From: an uncultured Paraglaciecola sp.
GTDB lineage: Bacteria; Pseudomonadota; Gammaproteobacteria; Enterobacterales; Alteromonadaceae
Assembly (NCBI GenBank): GCA_905479025.1
Contig: CAJQKX010000019.1
Location: 1 to 5,898, forward strand
Direction of reading: 5' to 3'
Length of the DNA: 5,898 bases
The stretch's first letter is position 1. Each line of letters begins with the position of its first letter. Shown one piece after another: positions 1 through 5,898 of this stretch. A program made the position numbers and the translations under genes. The notes beneath the pieces are model-generated. The model did no database searches, had not been told where the DNA came from, and was given only the letters and a program-made list of their open reading frames with translations.

Positions 1-947
1 AAGCCGTATGATTCCTCGGCACTGTTTTCGACGGTATAGTCACCGTTATGATCATCGTGGTCGTCATGTTCGTCATGTTCGTCTTCATGAGATTCGGCTT
101 CGACAGGTATTTCATAGTCATCTGAGTCACGTACAAAACCATCTGCATAAAATGCAAAGTTATCGGTGCCTGTAGTCACATTGAATGATGCTAATTTTTG
201 ATCATCGACTGTGCTGGTTTCAACTAACCATTCGCCTCGTGTTTCGCTGTCGGTTGGTACACGGTTATCCACCACATTAACCACACCGCCAATGGCACCA
301 CTGCCATAAAATAATGTGGCAGGGCCGCGTAAAACCTCAATCTGTGTGGCAGTGGATGCTTCGCTAGCGACAGCATGGTCGGGACCAATACGTGATGCGT
401 CGCTCACATCCAAACCATTTTGAGTAATCAACACTCTTGGTCCACTTAGCCCGCGAATAATTGGGGTACTGGCTACTTTTGCATGAAAGCTAGAGTGCAC
501 GCCCACCAGACTATTCAAGGTTTCACCAATAGTCGCACTTTGTTCACGTCGCAATGCTTCTCCAGACAATACACTTACCGGTAAAGCCGATTCCATCGAA
601 GATAAATGCAGTGGCGTAGAAACAATGTCTACCACTTCAATAGGAGAACTCTTTAACATGAATGAGATATTTTTCGTGCCAGCACTGGGGACATCAATAT
701 CTTGATGTAAGTGGGCAAAACCGGCTGCGGTAATATGCAGTTCATTAATACCCGTACTCAATCCTTCAAATACAAAACGGCCATTTGTATCAACAATGGC
801 CTCTATGCTGGAGCCTTCTAACTTTACTTTGGCGCCTGCAATAGGCTTTCCAAAACTATTTTTGACTACTCCTTCTATAGATTGCGCAAACGCACTGGCC
901 GGCAGAAGCACAGCAACTATGACGGCTATTTGTGAGACCTTAAACAT
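1..947 (-). CDS. TonB-dependent outer-membrane receptor, probable zinc receptor (ZnuD-like), 3' end outside window
   Basis: The 315 visible codons encode the N-terminal part of a TonB-dependent receptor, which uses TonB energy to import a ligand across the outer membrane. Residues 1-21 are a signal peptide ending in AFA before Q22. Residues about 22-100 resemble a carboxypeptidase-regulatory-like beta sandwich (GKPIAGAKV, DTNGRFVFEGL). The plug follows at about 110-225, with ETLNSLVGV, IIRGLSGPRV, and IEVLRGPATLFYGSGAIGG leading into NVVDNRVP. The barrel begins after that. Residues 287-300 alternate His with Asp/Glu, as in metal-binding loops of zinc receptors such as ZnuD. The start at 947 has AGGA six bases upstream and gives a good signal peptide. 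The gene diverges from a MerC-ZrgA-Zur operon across a spacer with Zur-like operators, which strongly favours zinc as ligand. Copper, or another substrate, cannot be excluded from the family alone. The rest of the barrel is beyond base 1. Confidence 0.93.
   Translation of the reverse strand, partial: MFKVSQIAVIVAVLLPASAFAQSIEGVVKNSFGKPIAGAKVKLEGSSIEAIVDTNGRFVFEGLSTGINELHITAAGFAHLHQDIDVPSAGTKNISFMLKSSPIEVVDIVSTPLHLSSMESALPVSVLSGEALRREQSATIGETLNSLVGVHSSFHAKVASTPIIRGLSGPRVLITQNGLDVSDASRIGPDHAVASEASTATQIEVLRGPATLFYGSGAIGGVVNVVDNRVPTDSETRGEWLVETSTVDDQKLASFNVTTGTDNFAFYADGFVRDSDDYEIPVEAESHEDEHDEHDDHDDHNGDYTVENSAEESYG
48..89 (-). repeat. short in-frame repeat encoding a His/Asp/Glu-rich metal-binding segment
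   Basis: Inside the receptor gene, codons 287-300 read as repeated His-acid-acid triplets (HEDE, HDE, HDD, HDD, H). Two successive nine-base units, GAACATGAC on the coding strand, are identical and the others are diverged copies. Five histidines at spacings of 3-4 residues could bind Zn2+ at the cell surface or in an extracellular loop. The near-identical units could vary in number by replication slippage while staying in frame. The repeat is seen directly; metal binding is inferred from the composition. Confidence 0.7.
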
Positions 948-950
948 TTT

Positions 951-957
951 CTTTCCT
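951..957 (-). promoter_or_regulatory. ribosome binding site of the TonB receptor gene
   Basis: On the minus strand AGGAAAG precedes the ATG at 947, with six bases between AGGA and the start codon. It supports this start rather than the ATG at 960, which is out of frame and opens only six codons. Confidence 0.7.
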
Positions 958-962
958 CATAT

Positions 963-977
963 TGTTATGATATAACA
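963..977. promoter_or_regulatory. candidate Zur operator 1
   Basis: TGTTATGATATAACA is an inverted repeat (TGTTAT, three bases, ATAACA). It differs at one position from the core of the gammaproteobacterial Zur consensus as I recall it (TGTTATANTATAACA). It lies 16 bases upstream of the TonB receptor start codon, where bound Zur would block transcription or early elongation of that gene. Zur is encoded in the divergent operon, which makes the assignment coherent. The match is seen in the sequence; binding is inferred. Confidence 0.75.
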
Positions 978-998
978 TTTTAAAACATATCAATGTTA

Positions 999-1013
999 TG
1001 TTATATTATATCA
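999..1013. promoter_or_regulatory. candidate Zur operator 2
   Basis: TGTTATATTATATCA matches the core Zur consensus except for one base in the right half (ATATCA instead of ATAACA). Its centre is 36 bp from that of operator 1, between 3 and 4 helical turns. It lies 37 bases upstream of the first MerC gene and overlaps TATATT (1002-1007), a possible -10 element for the rightward operon with a weak -35 (TTTAAA, 979-984). A TATAAT also occurs on the minus strand here (1010-1005), without a convincing -35. Two sites in one spacer suggest co-repression of both transcription units. Confidence 0.6.
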
Positions 1014-1040
1014 ATAAGGTAAACAACCTTAGGATGAGAA

Positions 1041-1044
1041 AGGA
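1041..1044 (+). promoter_or_regulatory. ribosome binding site of the first MerC-like gene
   Basis: AGGA, within GAGAAAGGA, lies six bases before the ATG at 1051. The in-frame TTG at 1045 directly abuts this site, so it cannot be the start; the ATG is preferred. Confidence 0.7.
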
Positions 1045-1050
1045 TTGAAA

Positions 1051-1446
1051 ATGACAAAACTGCAATTACTCAGTGATAAATTGGCGATAGGTTTATCTAT
1101 GGTATGTGCTGTCCATTGCTTGGTATTGCCAATGCTGCTTATCTTAGTACCACCTTTTTCTGGATTATTTGCTTTAGATGACGAAATGTTTCATCAGTGG
1201 ATGTTATACGCAGTTCTGCCTATCAGCATTGCGGCATTAATGATGGGTCACTTTCACCACCGCAGTTATGAGGTTTTTCTAGTGGGCTCAATCGGGCTTT
1301 CGTTGATTATTCTATCGGCCACTTTAAGTCATGATGTATTAGGCGAGACAGGCGAAGTTGTTTTATCAATACTGGGCTCTATGATTATCGCTTATGGGCA
1401 CTTTCGAAACTATCAATTAAGCAGCGCTAGACATGAAACGCAGTAA
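1051..1446 (+). CDS. MerC-domain small inner-membrane protein, first copy
   Basis: A 131-residue protein with four predicted membrane segments, at about residues 11-34, 50-66, 75-92 and 102-117. Segment 1 carries the MerC-type motif C19-A-V-H-C23 with P27 four residues later. A His-rich cytoplasmic or loop stretch (GHFHHR, 66-71) follows segment 2. MerC proteins of mercury operons carry Hg2+ across the inner membrane through paired cysteines in the first segments, but no mercury gene is nearby. Being first in an operon with ZrgA and Zur, behind a Zur-like operator, points to zinc transport, delivery or sensing, which is inference. The ATG start gives the same seven-residue spacing to the shared SDKLAIGLS motif as in the second copy at 2717. 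A 72-base gap separates it from zrgA. Confidence 0.85.
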   Translation: MTKLQLLSDKLAIGLSMVCAVHCLVLPMLLILVPPFSGLFALDDEMFHQWMLYAVLPISIAALMMGHFHHRSYEVFLVGSIGLSLIILSATLSHDVLGETGEVVLSILGSMIIAYGHFRNYQLSSARHETQ

Positions 1447-1505
1447 AATGTTAGCAAATAAAATATTAATCAATGCTGACCTAAACACAATAAATTATCG
1501 TTTAA

Positions 1506-1511
1506 AAGGAG
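1506..1511 (+). promoter_or_regulatory. ribosome binding site fixing the GTG start of zrgA
   Basis: AAGGAG lies seven bases before the GTG at 1519. There is no in-frame ATG, GTG or TTG between the upstream in-frame stop (1477-1479) and this codon, so GTG is the likely start. Confidence 0.75.
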
Positions 1512-1518
1512 TGATAAC

Positions 1519-2130
1519 GTGACAACAACACTAACGAGTGTCGGTGTTTTTTTAAGCATCGTTGCGGTATCTAGTCTATCTCTAGCTCATGCTCAACAAG
1601 CAAATTTGGGTGCACATGTTCATGGTATATCTGAGCTAAACATTATCATTGAGGGAAACAAACTCGAAATACAATTACGATCGCCGGCAATGAATATCCT
1701 TGGCTTTGAGCATAAAGCGGATACTGTGCAACAAATTATTAAGGTGAAGCAATCAGAATTGAAGTTGCATGATCACGAGGCACTTTTTTCATTTTATTCA
1801 GGAGGTTGCAGCCTTAATAAAGCTCAGATAGACCTGTCATATTTAATCAAAAATAATGCAACTGAAAAAAACACCTACACACCCGACAACCACAATCATC
1901 ACAAACATGATATTGCTCAACATCAAGATCGCGAGGCTGAGCATGGCGACCACAGTGAAATCGTCGCGCATTATTATTACGACTGTGAACACATGGATGA
2001 GTTGTCGTCCCTCTCCCTTGGTTTTTTTGATGTATTTCCTACTGTACAGCAGATTAATGGTATTTGGATTACAACATCTGGGCAAAGTGCTTTACCCCTT
2101 ACCCGCCAAAATAAAACGATAGTTTTTTAG
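1519..2130 (+). CDS. zrgA: ZrgA-family (DUF2796) periplasmic zinc-binding protein
   Basis: A 203-residue secreted protein. Residues 1-25 form a hydrophobic signal peptide with a probable AHA cleavage site before Q26. The mature start has the ZrgA hallmark GAHVHG (31-36), then SELNIIIEGNKLEIQLRSPA and NILGFEHKA. A conserved cysteine pair, C97 (GGC) and C156 (YYDCEH), may form a disulfide. Residues 125-151 form a His-rich linker (HNHHKH, then HQDREAEHGDH), the expected zinc-binding loop, followed by the C-terminal beta region ending in NKTIVF. In Vibrio, ZrgA works with the ZrgBCDE transporter under Zur. Here no ABC transporter gene is visible and the neighbours are MerC-like proteins. The signal peptide n-region (MTTTLTS) has no Lys or Arg, which is unusual, but no better start exists. 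The gene ends eight bases before zur. Confidence 0.9.
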   Translation: MTTTLTSVGVFLSIVAVSSLSLAHAQQANLGAHVHGISELNIIIEGNKLEIQLRSPAMNILGFEHKADTVQQIIKVKQSELKLHDHEALFSFYSGGCSLNKAQIDLSYLIKNNATEKNTYTPDNHNHHKHDIAQHQDREAEHGDHSEIVAHYYYDCEHMDELSSLSLGFFDVFPTVQQINGIWITTSGQSALPLTRQNKTIVF

Positions 2131-2132
2131 GT
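2129..2132 (+). promoter_or_regulatory. zur ribosome binding site overlapping the zrgA stop codon
   Basis: AGGT, six bases before the zur ATG, shares its first two bases with the TAG stop of zrgA (2128-2130). Ribosomes ending zrgA would cover it, so zur translation is probably coupled to zrgA. Confidence 0.55.
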
Positions 2133-2138
2133 AACGTC

Positions 2139-2630
2139 ATGGATAAATTAGATGTAGCCATTAGCCAAGCAGAGCAACAATGTAGAGTTCATGGCACACG
2201 TTTGACCGATAAGCGAAAGCAAGTTTTGACTGGCCTTTTGAAGTATGGCAAAGCACTTTCTGCCTATGAACTGGTAGATTTATGTAAAAAAGAATTTGGC
2301 GAAACGATACCTGCAATGACTGTCTACCGAATATTAGACTTTCTTGAGGAAGAAAATCTGGCGCACAAGTTAAAAATAGCTAACAAGTATGTGGCCTGTT
2401 CGCACATACCTTGTGACCACAATCATCAACCGCAATTTCTAATTTGTACTCAATGTCTAAAAGTCGAAGAGATCAGCATTGACTATACCATTATTCAGGC
2501 ACTTGAAAAAAATGTAAAACAAGCTGGATTTCAAGTGGTTAATTCAAAACTTGAGATGGACGGTGTGTGTAATGAATGCAAAGTGGTAGCAATCAGACCT
2601 GCCAATATAGGGTGCAAGCTAGACGTATAA
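2139..2630 (+). CDS. zur: Fur-family transcriptional regulator Zur (zinc uptake repressor)
   Basis: A 163-residue Fur-family repressor. The winged helix lies at about residues 20-85, with TVYRILDFLEEENLAHKL (61-78) covering the recognition helix and wing. The structural zinc site is C103, C106 (LICTQC), C144 and C147 (GVCNEC). The regulatory-site ligands of E. coli Zur (H77, C88, H96, E111) have clear counterparts H76, C87, H96 and E111. The Zur-type C87 and the context (ZrgA, zinc-type receptor, Zur-like operators) favour Zur over Fur, PerR or Nur. The protein should bind the divergent spacer as a zinc-loaded dimer and repress both the receptor and its own operon. Translation is probably coupled to zrgA. 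Extra cysteines C15, C49, C92 and C158 lie outside the recognised sites; C92-D-H-N-H96 near the regulatory site might modify metal affinity. Confidence 0.93.
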   Translation: MDKLDVAISQAEQQCRVHGTRLTDKRKQVLTGLLKYGKALSAYELVDLCKKEFGETIPAMTVYRILDFLEEENLAHKLKIANKYVACSHIPCDHNHQPQFLICTQCLKVEEISIDYTIIQALEKNVKQAGFQVVNSKLEMDGVCNECKVVAIRPANIGCKLDV

Positions 2631-2693
2631 ACATCCAAAGATGACCAACTTCAATATGACCAACAGCCACAACACATAAACAAAGGAACAATA

Positions 2694-2720
2694 ATGCTTA
2701 CCAGAGGTACCCATTTATGA
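2694..2720 (+). CDS. possible eight-codon upstream ORF overlapping the second MerC-like start
   Basis: ATG at 2694 opens MLTRGTHL and stops at TGA 2718-2720. AAAGGA (2682-2687) lies six bases upstream, a better ribosome site than that of the downstream gene. Its stop overlaps the start of the next gene as ATGA, the usual layout for termination-reinitiation. It may be a leader peptide, a remnant of a start region, or chance. No attenuator-like codon run is present. Confidence 0.3.
   Translation: MLTRGTHL
2703..2708 (+). promoter_or_regulatory. ribosome binding site of the second MerC-like gene
   Basis: AGAGGT lies eight bases before the ATG at 2717 and within the small upstream reading frame. 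It supports ATG 2717 over ATG 2726; the former also gives equal N-terminal length to the first copy. Confidence 0.55.
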
Positions 2721-3142
2721 ACTCAATGAAATTTTTTTCCGATAAGCTGGCTATAGGCTTGTCATTAACTTGTGCTATCCATTGTATAGCATTGCCATTT
2801 TTATTGATTGGATTACCGAGCTTTGCTGCGTTAAATTTAGATAATGAGGCGTTTCATGTATGGATGGTTGTTGCCGTTATCCCTACCAGTATCTATGCGC
2901 TTTTTATGGGCTGCAAGCAGCACAAAAGATATGAATTGCTTAAATACGGAGTGATTGGGTTAACTTTATTGATACTAGCGGTAACACAAGGGGAAGAGAT
3001 AATTGGTGAACTATGGGAGAAGCTACTCACAGTATCTGGAGCCATGTTTGTTGCATACGGACATTACCGTAATTTTCAGTTGTGCCAAAATCAACAAGAC
3101 TGCCAGTGTGATAGTAAAGCGCATGATGAGTCTCCTGTCTAG
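2717..3142 (+). CDS. MerC-domain small inner-membrane protein, second copy
   Basis: A 141-residue paralog of the protein at 1051-1446, with four predicted membrane segments at about 11-34, 49-65, 74-91 and 101-116. Residues 8-16 (SDKLAIGLS) and the positions of C19, H22, C23 and P27 are identical to the first copy. Other shared blocks are FHxWM, AVxPxSI and AYGHxRNxQL. It differs where the first copy has GHFHHR: here it is GCKQHKR (65-71), giving a cysteine at 66. The C-terminal tail adds C123, C129 and C131 plus acidic and His residues, absent in the first copy. Those could receive metal or sense thiols on one face of the membrane, as inferred from MerC proteins. It follows zur by 86 bases and is probably the last gene of the operon. 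Zinc delivery is a contextual inference; a different soft metal is possible. Confidence 0.85.
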   Translation: MNSMKFFSDKLAIGLSLTCAIHCIALPFLLIGLPSFAALNLDNEAFHVWMVVAVIPTSIYALFMGCKQHKRYELLKYGVIGLTLLILAVTQGEEIIGELWEKLLTVSGAMFVAYGHYRNFQLCQNQQDCQCDSKAHDESPV

Positions 3143-3151
3143 CGCCAAAGG

Positions 3152-3181
3152 TTCACTCAAATAACAACGTATTTGAGTGAA
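3152..3181. repeat. perfect 12-bp inverted repeat downstream of the zinc operon
   Basis: TTCACTCAAATA (3152-3163) pairs perfectly with TATTTGAGTGAA (3170-3181) around a six-base loop. It begins nine bases after the stop of the second MerC-like gene. No T-run follows, so it is not a standard intrinsic terminator. It may protect the mRNA 3' end or assist termination. Confidence 0.55.
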
Positions 3182-3189
3182 TGAAAAGT

Positions 3190-3223
3190 GCCTGCAAACA
3201 CAGTCGATCGTATTTGCAGGCCT
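3190..3223 (+). terminator. candidate intrinsic terminator of the zinc operon
   Basis: GCCTGCAAA (3190-3198) pairs with TTTGCAGGC (3213-3221), with A-T and C-G pairs possible beyond one mismatch. An A-run (3184-3187) precedes the stem and only a short pyrimidine tract (CTTT) follows, so efficiency may be modest. It sits between the zinc operon and the phosphatase unit, both read rightward, as a terminator should. Confidence 0.4.
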
Positions 3224-3252
3224 TTGAGCTTACATTGTGTTAATCATAGAAA
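3224..3252 (+). promoter_or_regulatory. weak sigma70-like promoter candidate for the phosphatase unit
   Basis: TTGAGC (3224-3229) and TAGAAA (3247-3252) are 17 bases apart and each matches four of six consensus bases. It lies after the candidate terminator and 28 bases before the start codon. No convincing Pho box overlaps it. The match is weak enough to arise by chance. Confidence 0.25.
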
Positions 3253-3266
3253 GTAACCCAGGTTGC

Positions 3267-3272
3267 AAGGAA
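3267..3272 (+). promoter_or_regulatory. ribosome binding site deciding the start of the EEP-HAD fusion
   Basis: AAGGAA lies eight bases before ATG 3281. An in-frame TTG at 3263 lies before this site, so the ATG, which also starts a proper signal peptide (MKNLLRM), is preferred. Confidence 0.7.
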
Positions 3273-3280
3273 ACAAGTTC

Positions 3281-4912
3281 ATGAAAAACCTTTTAAGAAT
3301 GGTGCTAGTCGTTTTGACTTGTTCGGCTTGTTCGGCAAAAAACAATACCCATCTAGGGGCAACATCACTCCCGTCGGTTAAATCGATTACTGTTGACGGT
3401 ATGACCTTAGCTACTTGGAATATTGAGCACCTTAGCTTTCCTGCCGAACTGGGTTGTAAACCTCGCAGCCAAGCCCAAATAAATGCAATGAAAGCCTACG
3501 TAGACAGATTAGATGTTGATATCTTTGCTTTACAGGAGGTCGCTTCAAAACAAGCAATACAACAAATTTTTGCCGCTGATAAATGGCAAATTATTGTGTC
3601 TGAAAGAGCGCCCAGCAGGACGTACACCTGCCGTGGCAGTGATAACCTGTCCACTCAACAAAAAGTGGCTTTTGCAGTTCGCCAGCATATACCTGTCTCA
3701 GCTAGCAAAAACTACGCTGATTTGGCGATAGACAGAGAAGGGTTACGTTATGGTTTATCTGTGACCTTACCCACACCTAAGGGCGAGACAGAAATCCTTA
3801 ATCTGCATCTTAAGAGCGGCTGCTTTGTGGATAACTATAGCCGTGCAAATTCAGAAGCCTGTCAAGTATTTGCCAAACAGGCACTGATTTTGGACGAATG
3901 GGTTGAAGCAAAAGAACGCGACCAACAGCCTTACATAATTCTTGGCGACTTTAACCATCGCTTAAGTGCACCTTACAATCAGCTTACCCGAGAGCTACTT
4001 GTTAATACCAATGGCAGTGCTTCTAAGCTGTTTAACACCACGGCTGATTTGATAGGTTGTCATCCTTACTATCCGGCGCCTATCGACCATATCTTGGCGG
4101 GTGGCTTCCAGTCATCTTCTCTTACACTTCAATCACAAACGCACAAATTCGACAATATGGAAGTTGACGGCATGTTAAGTGATCATTGTGCGGTCACTCT
4201 GTCGATTAGTTCACAGCCTTTGCCTCTTTCGCCAGCAGTGAAATGGTTAACCACCAGTAAAGAATATCAATTCCTTACTCGGGAGATTTATCAACAAGCT
4301 ACCCGCACACTAGAACAACTATCTCCACAAAAAGGTAACTGGGTGGTGGTAATGGATGTAGACGAAACCATTCTGGATAATAGCCCTTATCAGGTGTCGC
4401 TGGATAAAACGGGTGCTAGCTATATCTCCAAGACCTGGGAATATTGGGTAAAACAAGCCTCGGCGGGTTTGGTTCCGGGCGCTACTACCTTCATTCAAGC
4501 GGTATTGGATAAAGGTGGCAAGTTAGCACTTATCACCAACCGAGAAAAAAATACTGAGTTATACACTTGGCAGAATTTACGTACCTTGGGTTTACCACTT
4601 ACCCAAGTCAATACCTGCTTGTTAGGCAGAGCCGAAGCAGATGTGCGTGCTATTGACGACGAAACTATGATCAATGACAAAGACTTGCGCCGTCAACAAA
4701 TTGAGATGGGTAATGCACCTTGTTACAGTCACCAACCACAGTCACCAAGAACACAAGAATGGTCGCAAACACAGCAAATATTGATGCACGTGGGCGATAA
4801 TATTGAGGACTTTCCAGGTATGACTCAAAAAAATGCCGATATCGCAATTTTGTTGTTGCAGCAACCACGTACATTCATTTTATTGCCTAACCCCACATAT
4901 GGGTCGTGGTAA
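3281..4912 (+). CDS. two-domain EEP nuclease/phosphatase - e(P4)-type HAD acid phosphatase fusion, probable lipoprotein
   Basis: A 543-residue exported protein. Residues 1-17 (MKNLLRM, hydrophobic core, TCSAC) look like a lipoprotein leader with acylated C17, though the -3 cysteine makes the lipobox atypical. Residues about 40-310 are an endonuclease/exonuclease/phosphatase domain: TWNIEH (N47), LQEV (E86), LNLHLKS (H176), GDFNHR (D223, N225), PIDHIL (D269) and SDH (D301, H302), a complete-looking metal and catalytic set. Residues about 320-543 are a HAD subfamily IIIB acid phosphatase of the lipoprotein e(P4) type: DVDET (D359, D361), ITNR (T419), K467 followed by LRR, GDNIEDF (D506, D510), and the family's LLPNPTYGSW ending. 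The first domain probably cuts phosphodiesters and the second removes phosphate from nucleotides; substrates are not determined by the sequence. PhoX follows after 26 bases. Each domain is normally found as a separate protein. Confidence 0.9.
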   Translation: MKNLLRMVLVVLTCSACSAKNNTHLGATSLPSVKSITVDGMTLATWNIEHLSFPAELGCKPRSQAQINAMKAYVDRLDVDIFALQEVASKQAIQQIFAADKWQIIVSERAPSRTYTCRGSDNLSTQQKVAFAVRQHIPVSASKNYADLAIDREGLRYGLSVTLPTPKGETEILNLHLKSGCFVDNYSRANSEACQVFAKQALILDEWVEAKERDQQPYIILGDFNHRLSAPYNQLTRELLVNTNGSASKLFNTTADLIGCHPYYPAPIDHILAGGFQSSSLTLQSQTHKFDNMEVDGMLSDHCAVTLSISSQPLPLSPAVKWLTTSKEYQFLTREIYQQATRTLEQLSPQKGNWVVVMDVDETILDNSPYQVSLDKTGASYISKTWEYWVKQASAGLVPGATTFIQAVLDKGGKLALITNREKNTELYTWQNLRTLGLPLTQVNTCLLGRAEADVRAIDDETMINDKDLRRQQIEMGNAPCYSHQPQSPRTQEWSQTQQILMHVGDNIEDFPGMTQKNADIAILLLQQPRTFILLPNPTYGSW

Positions 4913-4927
4913 CTACGCATCTGGACT

Positions 4928-4932
4928 AGGAG
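4928..4932 (+). promoter_or_regulatory. ribosome binding site of the PhoX-family gene
   Basis: AGGAG lies six bases before ATG 4939, which begins a twin-arginine leader. The short gap from the preceding stop indicates co-transcription. Confidence 0.75.
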
Positions 4933-4938
4933 AAGGTG

Positions 4939-5898
4939 ATGATTAATAGACGACAATTTAATCAAGGTTTAGTGGCCATGGCGTTTGGAGGCTTAGCATC
5001 ACATCTGCAGGCCTCACAGTCTCGCTTACAAACTACTGCTATGGATCAAAATGGCGCATACGGCAAACTGATATCTGATCCTAATGCGTTATTAGACTTA
5101 CCCTCTGGTTTTAGTTATGAGGTTATCTCGCGTCTGGGAGACAACATGCAGGATGACCTGAATGTGCCTGATCGTGCTGATGGTATGGGTTGTTTTTATC
5201 TTGATGATAAACGAGTGGTTTTAATCAGAAATCACGAAATCACGACCAATAAACTGATCAAAAAACATCATGGTGACAAGCAAGCTATGATGCTTGAGTT
5301 AGCCTATGACAACCTTGAGAATACTTATCCGTTGCCCGGCGGGACCAGCTCCATTGTTTACAATCTGCAATCGAAACGTGTTGAACAGCAGTTTATGTCG
5401 CTAATTGGCACGATCCGTAACTGTTCTGGTGGTGTTACACCCTGGGAAACATGGATGACCTGCGAAGAATCGGTGGATAAAGCAGACAAGATGATCAGTA
5501 AAGATCATGGTTATGTGTTTGAAGTACCTGCCAATGCCACCAAGATGGTCAATGCCATCCCTATTAAAGCGATGGGCAGATTTAACCATGAAGCAGCTTG
5601 TGTTGATCCCCGAACGGGCATTGTTTATATGACCGAAGACAGAAACGATAGCCTGATTTATCGTTATATTCCAAACCAAAAAGCTAACTTACAGTCTGGT
5701 GGTCGTTTGCAAGCATTAGTGATAACACAACAACCTAAATTCGATACACGCAACTGGCATTCAAAATCTATGCCCTTAAACCAAGAAATGGCCGTTGAAT
5801 GGATTGAGTTGGAACACCCTGAAAGCCCAAATGATGACCTGCGTTTGCGAGGTTTTAATTTAGGAGCAGCGCTGTTTGCAAGAGGCGAAGGTATGCAT
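4939..5898 (+). CDS. PhoX-family (DUF839) phosphatase, 3' end outside window
   Basis: The 320 visible codons are open to the window edge. The N-terminus, MINRRQFNQG followed by a hydrophobic stretch to about residue 25, resembles a Tat signal (RR-x-F), so the protein is probably exported folded with cofactors. PhoX-family blocks follow in order: SGFSYEV-like LPSGFSYEVIS, IRNHE (96-100), LPGGTSS, TIRNCSGG (C162), TPWETWMTCEE (E176, E177), HGYVFEVP, GRFNHEA (E218) and VYMTEDR (E233). PhoX enzymes are Fe/Ca alkaline phosphatases of the periplasm or cell surface; a cysteine in the RNC motif and conserved glutamates serve the metal centre in characterised members. With the upstream EEP-HAD fusion it probably forms a phosphate-scavenging unit. 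DUF839 also includes proteins of untested activity, so phosphatase function is likely, not proven. Confidence 0.9.
   Translation, partial: MINRRQFNQGLVAMAFGGLASHLQASQSRLQTTAMDQNGAYGKLISDPNALLDLPSGFSYEVISRLGDNMQDDLNVPDRADGMGCFYLDDKRVVLIRNHEITTNKLIKKHHGDKQAMMLELAYDNLENTYPLPGGTSSIVYNLQSKRVEQQFMSLIGTIRNCSGGVTPWETWMTCEESVDKADKMISKDHGYVFEVPANATKMVNAIPIKAMGRFNHEAACVDPRTGIVYMTEDRNDSLIYRYIPNQKANLQSGGRLQALVITQQPKFDTRNWHSKSMPLNQEMAVEWIELEHPESPNDDLRLRGFNLGAALFARGEGMH

Follow-up and report, generated by a model that had tools for sequence, protein, structure and literature searches.

Why should two members of a family that takes its name from mercury resistance sit within what looks like a zinc-starvation operon? 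The question is raised by a 5,898-nucleotide stretch of DNA from an uncultured Paraglaciecola sp. (contig CAJQKX010000019.1, positions 1-5,898 of the forward strand; hereafter the window), in which two MerC-domain proteins, MerC1 and MerC2, bracket a zrgA-family gene and a zur-like gene. Comparative sequence analysis points strongly to a link between MerC proteins of this kind and the zinc regulon. On balance, we favor the reading that MerC1 and MerC2 fall in a large branch of the MerC fold separate from the mercuric form, sit in the inner membrane under repression by Zur, and assist the entry of zinc into the cytoplasm; that MerC itself transports zinc is what we infer. The argument turns on the following features of the window.

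3..947, minus strand: ZnuD-like TonB-dependent receptor, N-terminal 315 residues, truncated by the window edge (plug domain, 69 bits)
963..977, no strand assigned: Zur-type palindrome TGTTATGATATAACA, a perfect match to the consensus TGTTATNNNATAACA
999..1013, no strand assigned: second Zur-type palindrome, one mismatch to TGTTATNNNATAACA
1051..1446, plus strand: MerC1, operon-type MerC-domain membrane protein without a C-terminal cysteine tail (PF03203)
1519..2130, plus strand: ZrgA-family protein with a His-rich stretch (PF10986, 155.6 bits; cut-off 27.4)
2139..2630, plus strand: Zur-like FUR-family regulator (PF01475, 57.2 bits)
2717..3142, plus strand: MerC2, operon-type MerC-domain membrane protein with a cysteine-containing tail (PF03203)

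MerC1 (131 residues) and MerC2 (141 residues) score 107.5 and 107.8 bits against PF03203 (cut-off 27.6), match model positions 1-107 of 108, and are 49% identical to each other. The gene calls, the MerC identity and the palindromes together confirm what a sequence-only reading of this DNA had observed, namely two MerC-like proteins on either side of zrgA and zur, with Zur-like operators upstream and a zinc-type TonB receptor transcribed divergently. The 103-bp gap between the receptor and MerC1 holds the palindromes. The receptor matches the ZnuD model NF038289 over part of its length (140.8 bits; the full-length cut-off is 950), and its homologue at the same position in a second uncultured Paraglaciecola (locus L007) has 845 residues. 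Both MerC proteins keep C19, H22 and C23, as had been noted. The description of both as four-helix proteins holds for MerC2, to which modelling was confined: an AlphaFold2 (AF2) model predicts helices at residues 2-32, 43-64, 71-96 and 98-124, with a mean predicted local distance difference test (pLDDT) score of 78. No solved MerC-like structure was found by sequence, nor by fold at E up to 0.001. The only Pfam domain in MerC1 is MerC; MerC2 has MerC and a sub-threshold CstA match. The interpretation attached to that early observation is partly supported, and we take up its elements where the evidence bears on them.

Two genes lie between the MerC genes. ZrgA scores 124 bits against the NCBIfam ZrgA equivalog, below the cut-off of 185, and its relatives in the PDB are 7ahw (PA4063) and 8ezw (a zinc-binding protein); homology predicts a periplasmic zinc-binding role. 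Among six NCBIfam models that match the FUR-family protein, the best is Zur (91.6 bits, below the cut-off of 167), and its second-best PDB relative is 4mtd, 'Zinc uptake regulation protein'. An Rfam search of the window gave no RNA element above gathering scores.

The association of MerC with zinc genes recurs far from Paraglaciecola. One genome per species was scanned with the MerC alignment, and the best 80 of 113 confirmed stretches were taken, of which 78 were scored (for L020 and L058 the gene set used contained no called MerC). In 72 of the 78 loci, MerC has one or more members of the zinc regulon within 3 kb, the genes counted being zur-like, zrgA, DUF1826, COG0523, hisI2, folE2, znuA and znuB. 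Within this distance zur-like genes occur in 47 loci, zrgA in 44, short cobW in 30, DUF1826 in 28, hisI2 in 24 and long cobW in 13. PMC2770081 places COG0523 genes, folE2, and hisI and pyrC paralogs in predicted Zur regulons. Judged by their record titles, the loci include ones from Gammaproteobacteria, from Nitrosomonas and Burkholderiales (L039, L051, L081), and from Nitrospina/Nitrospinaceae (L015, L017). A Sphingomonas plasmid has MerC flanked by two genes for GTP-binding proteins of the long cobW cluster, with a DUF1826 gene and a 'transcriptional repressor' gene nearby; we do not call the latter a Fur protein because no Pfam family matched it. The control for these neighbor counts (open reading frames, ORFs, lying 6 kb or more from MerC and 3 kb or more from locus ends) held 15 ORFs, three of them positive, a number too small to be of use. 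Because the first scan was seeded by a MerC sub-pattern, the plain Pfam model was used as well. In the family of Halioglobus (Halieaceae, a name inferred from its members), MerC scores above the cut-off in 41 of 140 genomes, and zinc neighbors were present in all 30 loci read, which were the best-scoring of those 41. The genome search for MerC beside zrgA or zur that the sequence-only reading had proposed as a check therefore finds an arrangement that is not unique to this genome. With Zur-linked MerC recurring in several bacterial groups, its idea of a zinc module that had gone unrecognised deserves to be followed, and the role that suggests itself most naturally is import.

In the family of Paraglaciecola itself (Alteromonadaceae sensu lato, a name likewise inferred from members), 246 of 256 genomes have MerC. 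We read 40 loci, picked at about every fourth row from the listed top of the MerC ranking, and they fall into two types. Eighteen are of type A, the operon type seen in the window; 14 of these have zinc neighbors, and three more carry a Zur-type box that departs from the consensus at no more than one position. The commoner type B (22 loci) is a stand-alone gene with a zinc neighbor within 3 kb in 0 of 22 cases. The neighbors named for two type B loci are GDPD, EamA, psd and rsgA genes at one, and a tRNA-synthetase-like gene and a two-component system at the other. Type B proteins (L209:4383-4865, L199:4490-4921 and others in L178-L217) have a Cys-rich tail, and several have W-F-E-R in place of E-x-F-H.

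The Zur-type boxes provide a second line of evidence. The consensus TGTTATNNNATAACA was drawn here from Caulobacter Zur sites in PMC4176598. With up to two mismatches it matches four times in the window against 0.64 expected, a number reached in 1 of 200 shuffles. The gap between zur and MerC2 has no box at up to two mismatches. The receptor-MerC1 gap has two perfect boxes in L007 and one in L006, another uncultured Paraglaciecola locus. Across the 40 Alteromonadaceae loci, a box lies directly before type B MerC in 15 of 22 cases at up to one mismatch and in 20 of 22 at up to two, and control genes of the same loci have one in 0 of 146 and 1 of 146, respectively. These type B genes were selected by score; when selected by motif, 26 of 27 are boxed. 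The genes upstream of type B form eight groups without detected mutual similarity, and six of the eight groups include a one-mismatch box; of the other two, a group of three has boxes with two to three mismatches only and a group of four has boxes with two. A box that recurs behind six unrelated groups of upstream genes is evidently tied to MerC itself. Predicted operon starts of type A have a box in 31 of 85 cases at up to one mismatch and 43 of 85 at up to two, compared with 0.2% and 3.5% in shuffles; this count is per MerC gene, so that a two-MerC operon enters twice.

What separates these proteins from mercuric MerC is a small set of residues. We aligned 195 MerC proteins in MerC2 numbering and built a tree from them, leaving aside frames below 110 or above 200 residues, exact duplicates, and low-scoring class-sample matches without a fetched locus. 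The set comprises 190 non-mer proteins and only five from mer operons, namely that of Tn21 (carried by R100) and four more, out of 3,607 matching plasmid records. C19, H22, C23, H116 and N119 are invariant in 190 of 190 non-mer proteins, the two of the window included, and the full set is present in 0 of 5 mer-operon proteins. These five instead share S19, G22, C23, S116 and D119 (5 of 5, against 0 of 190 others) and form a separate single clade with support 1.0 in a tree whose root is not established. Since the five-residue set is found throughout the non-mer proteins and is absent from the mer-operon forms, the family may owe its name to an unusual branch. Mercuric MerC, a membrane protein that reportedly takes up Hg2+, shares with the window proteins the PF03203 fold, a similar length, the helix-1 C23 and H69. 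It differs in sequence (18% identical to MerC2) and in setting: the five mercuric genes lie between merP and merA, whereas the zinc-linked branch has Zur-type boxes at many loci. No other mer family is present among the window proteins. Within the non-mer branch, residue 47 is His in type A (113 of 113) and Glu in type B (33 of 33), and C129 of the cysteine tail occurs in 95 of 113 type A proteins.

The closest relatives of the window show which parts of the locus are kept. L006 and L007 have the same gene order, with MerC2 proteins 89% and 87% identical to that of the window, respectively. The ratio of nonsynonymous to synonymous substitution rates (dN/dS) is 0.12-0.14 for MerC2 (against L007 and L006) and 0.23 for MerC1 (against L007 only), which suggests purifying selection on both; a row comparing MerC1 with L006 was set aside, since it had paired with the MerC2 of that locus. 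In L006, MerC1 (8200-8607) is broken into two partial matches, and the ZrgA, zur and MerC2 frames are open. Given this broken copy, and a second MerC within 3 kb in 2 of the 78 loci, the pairing of two MerC copies as a working unit does not appear to be general.

The sequence-only reading had also built on the absence of ATP-binding cassette (ABC) transporter genes, from which it inferred that the MerC-like proteins could accept zinc from ZrgA. That absence is probably an effect of the window edge, because the usual partners of ZrgA lie downstream in L007: about 3.9-8.1 kb after MerC2 there is a COG0523 (cobW) gene and then a DUF3299 / ABC / MacB set, with a one-mismatch box before each, and the ABC and MacB genes, at about 6-8 kb, are past the extent of the window. 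No ABC or MacB gene was seen in L006 through the downstream end of its contig. The window shares ZrgA with ZrgABCDE of Vibrio and PA4063-PA4066 of Pseudomonas, and L007 shares with them the ABC protein, the MacB-type permease and DUF3299; MerC was not seen as a component in the passages and the abstract consulted on those systems. A handover of zinc from ZrgA to MerC is not favored, since ZrgA is absent within 3 kb of MerC in 34 of 78 loci and 22 of 40 Alteromonadaceae loci are of type B. The system of ZrgA may itself be an exporter, as argued in part of PMC11481552, and the abstract of PMC9820375 treats it as an importer.

How might MerC act in such a setting? Zinc-loaded Zur would repress the TonB receptor and the merC-zrgA-zur-merC operon, a repression predicted for the window genes from their boxes. 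As zinc falls, the receptor would bring zinc into the periplasm, ZrgA would bind periplasmic zinc, and the four-helix MerC would pass Zn2+ inward along a ladder of ligands. With the basic loop at residues ~67-71 set inside, the model of MerC2 would place E44, H47 and E101 toward the periplasm, C19/H22/C23 within helix 1, and H116/N119 and the cysteine tail toward the cytoplasm. The ladder could thus run from E44, H47 and E101 near the outer face, through C19/H22/C23, to H116/N119, joined in MerC2 by the tail, near the inner face. COG0523 GTPases, Zur-boxed in close relatives, may then distribute the metal after entry. Mercury, cadmium and zinc are group 12 metals, and Cys and His in place of Ser and Gly at the helix-1 site suit a borderline metal like zinc. 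Mercuric ion uptake by MerC was reportedly described by Sahlman in 1997, and a 2020 study, going by its title, deals with how Mer proteins, MerC among them, transport Cd2+. On the model of this mercuric ion uptake, inward movement of zinc under Zur control would be the most economical reading.

Other roles have to be weighed against zinc entry. MerC could be an inner-membrane helper under Zur control that binds zinc but does not itself carry it across, serving COG0523 GTPases or some other transporter as a docking site or metallochaperone. COG0523 genes are frequent neighbors, as the short and long cobW counts attest; the Sphingomonas plasmid gene lies between two members of the long cobW cluster; and the cysteine tail, with C129 in most type A proteins, is common. 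Against this, type B MerC has no zinc-gene neighbor within 3 kb at any of 22 loci and mostly has its own box, and the characterised relative, mercuric MerC, is reported to be a metal uptake protein. We consider the helper role unlikely, if the most plausible of these alternatives. Improbable in our view is that MerC guards a cell short of zinc against the wrong metals (Cd, Co, Hg), or that its task is the export of a metal or ligand, with no import of zinc. Part of PMC11481552 argues that a zrg-system relative in P. aeruginosa is a MacB-type pyochelin exporter whose loss leads to cobalt build-up, and the nearby permease family here is MacB/FtsX. Yet the characterised MerC is reported to act in uptake, the mercuric Ser and Gly positions are Cys and His in the zinc-linked branch, and H116 and N119 are invariant.

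A part for MerC in zinc sensing for Zur, raised in the sequence-only reading as Zur signalling, found no support and is very improbable. The zur-like genes near 47 of 78 MerC genes would fit it, but Zur itself binds zinc, many MerC genes stand alone, and neither protein of the window has a Pfam domain beyond MerC apart from the sub-threshold CstA match of MerC2. That mercury-resistance genes adjoin zinc genes by chance is scarcely credible: Tn21 MerC belongs to the same Pfam family (90.8 bits), but MerA is above the cut-off in 0 of 15 MerC-bearing genomes, zinc neighbors and boxes recur, and the mer-operon proteins form their own clade without the five-residue set. On these grounds we reject it.

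A bolder form of the zinc-entry reading concerns ZnuABC. We put forward, tentatively, that the C-x-x-H-C / H-x-x-N branch of MerC is a new class of small Zur-controlled zinc importer that took over high-affinity entry from ZnuABC in much of Alteromonadaceae, and that mercuric MerC is a specialised offshoot; this is possible, and we hold it less firmly than a role in zinc entry as such. ZnuABC and ZupT/ZIP share with MerC a presumed function in zinc entry, and ZnuABC also its Zur control; their Pfam families are unlike that of MerC, and they were not found in many MerC-bearing Alteromonadaceae. Among 15 MerC-locus genomes, ZnuA and a strong ABC-3 (ZnuB-type) match occur in the same five, ZIP in six, and neither ZnuA nor ZIP in six. 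Across Alteromonadaceae, ZnuA is found in 34 of 256 genomes and ZIP in 106 of 256 at E up to 0.001 (82 above the cut-off). ZnuA is present in 23 of 235 genomes with strong MerC (E below 1e-20, a threshold set after the list was seen) versus 11 of the 21 in which MerC is weak or missing (Fisher p 6.5e-6, kinship ignored); the plain split into genomes with and without MerC gives p 0.031. Neither ZnuA nor ZIP is found in 117 of the 235 genomes with strong MerC.

Several results weigh against these readings. The ZnuA-MerC comparison ignores phylogeny and uses a post hoc threshold for strong MerC, and the importer search covered ZnuA and ZIP, out of a range of importers that also includes NRAMP and Pit. 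In a wider class sample, ZnuA occurs in 9 of 20 genomes with MerC at 80 bits or above, 29 of 48 with any MerC above the cut-off and 150 of 226 with no MerC; the difference between 9 of 20 and 150 of 226 is not significant (p 0.085). In Halieaceae the link is absent, with ZnuA in 4 of 41 genomes with MerC and 11 of 99 without, and 88 of 140 genomes there lack both MerC and ZnuA. Six of 10 MerC-less Alteromonadaceae are also without ZnuA and ZIP, so another zinc route exists or the genomes are incomplete. At some of the scanned loci znuA or znuB lies beside MerC, so MerC is not only a substitute. As to the boxes, the operon start predicted for 42 of 85 type A MerC genes offers no match with fewer than three mismatches. 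A broad ORF control, which includes divergent genes sharing those gaps, is boxed in 32 of 601 cases at one mismatch and 63 of 601 at two. Because the class sample and Halieaceae do not bear it out, the idea that MerC replaces ZnuABC serves well as a hypothesis within Alteromonadaceae but is not upheld as a general rule beyond that family.

Two further genes complete the window.

3281..4912, plus strand: two-domain protein, endonuclease/exonuclease/phosphatase (PF03372) plus acid-phosphatase HAD (PF03767)
4936-5898, plus strand: PhoX phosphatase, start only (Pfam)

The PF03372-PF03767 fusion protein has homologues of similar length at the same position in L006 and L007. A PhoX-type phosphatase, identified through Pfam in the window and through sequence clustering at five loci, turns up repeatedly near MerC genes of the zinc regulon. 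In L008 it lies 136 bp after MerC (10538-11896), and Zur-type boxes precede it in L053 (12185-13522; one mismatch, starting 125 bp before) and L050 (7619-8980; 153 bp before). PhoX is not known to be a zinc enzyme, and near MerC it may therefore be a zinc-sparing stand-in for PhoA. MerC genes also occur in other company. On a Tolypothrix plasmid (L002:7609-8369), MerC comes after the gene for an ArsR/SmtB-type regulator and a divergently oriented P-type ATPase for heavy metals, perhaps a setting of metal excess, not zinc starvation, for the same residue set. In L062, L072 and L079, MerC is near one or two copies of a ~475-residue gene family, accompanied at the first two loci by another TonB receptor and an ABC-transporter-cluster gene, possibly a further metal uptake set.

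The MerC family, the Zur regulon and ZrgA are already known; as far as our searches go, the zinc-linked MerC branch is new. Among the matches listed, we recognised no paper that ties MerC to Zur or to a shortage of zinc; most subscription journals and regulon databases such as RegPrecise were outside the scope of the search, and word-start matches to 'MerC' included unrelated words. A distant merC homologue in Stenotrophomonas maltophilia, beside a P47K (COG0523-type) gene as in the zinc loci, acquired mutations in helix 1 under selection in the lung of a patient, and a divergent role was suggested for it (PMC5253648). The passages concern metal and antibiotic resistance, the words 'zinc' and 'Zur' do not occur in the main text, and the likeness drawn here is one of domain and gene neighborhood.

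If MerC of this branch does bring zinc into the cell, a family named for mercury resistance would be a core component of zinc nutrition, and a simple four-helix metal importer would be added to the known types. The residue set that parts the two MerC branches makes their specificity testable. Zinc entry through MerC would provide a testable reading for the merC homologue under selection in lung-dwelling Stenotrophomonas. Such a role would also help to explain zinc uptake in marine bacteria where neither ZnuA nor ZIP is found.

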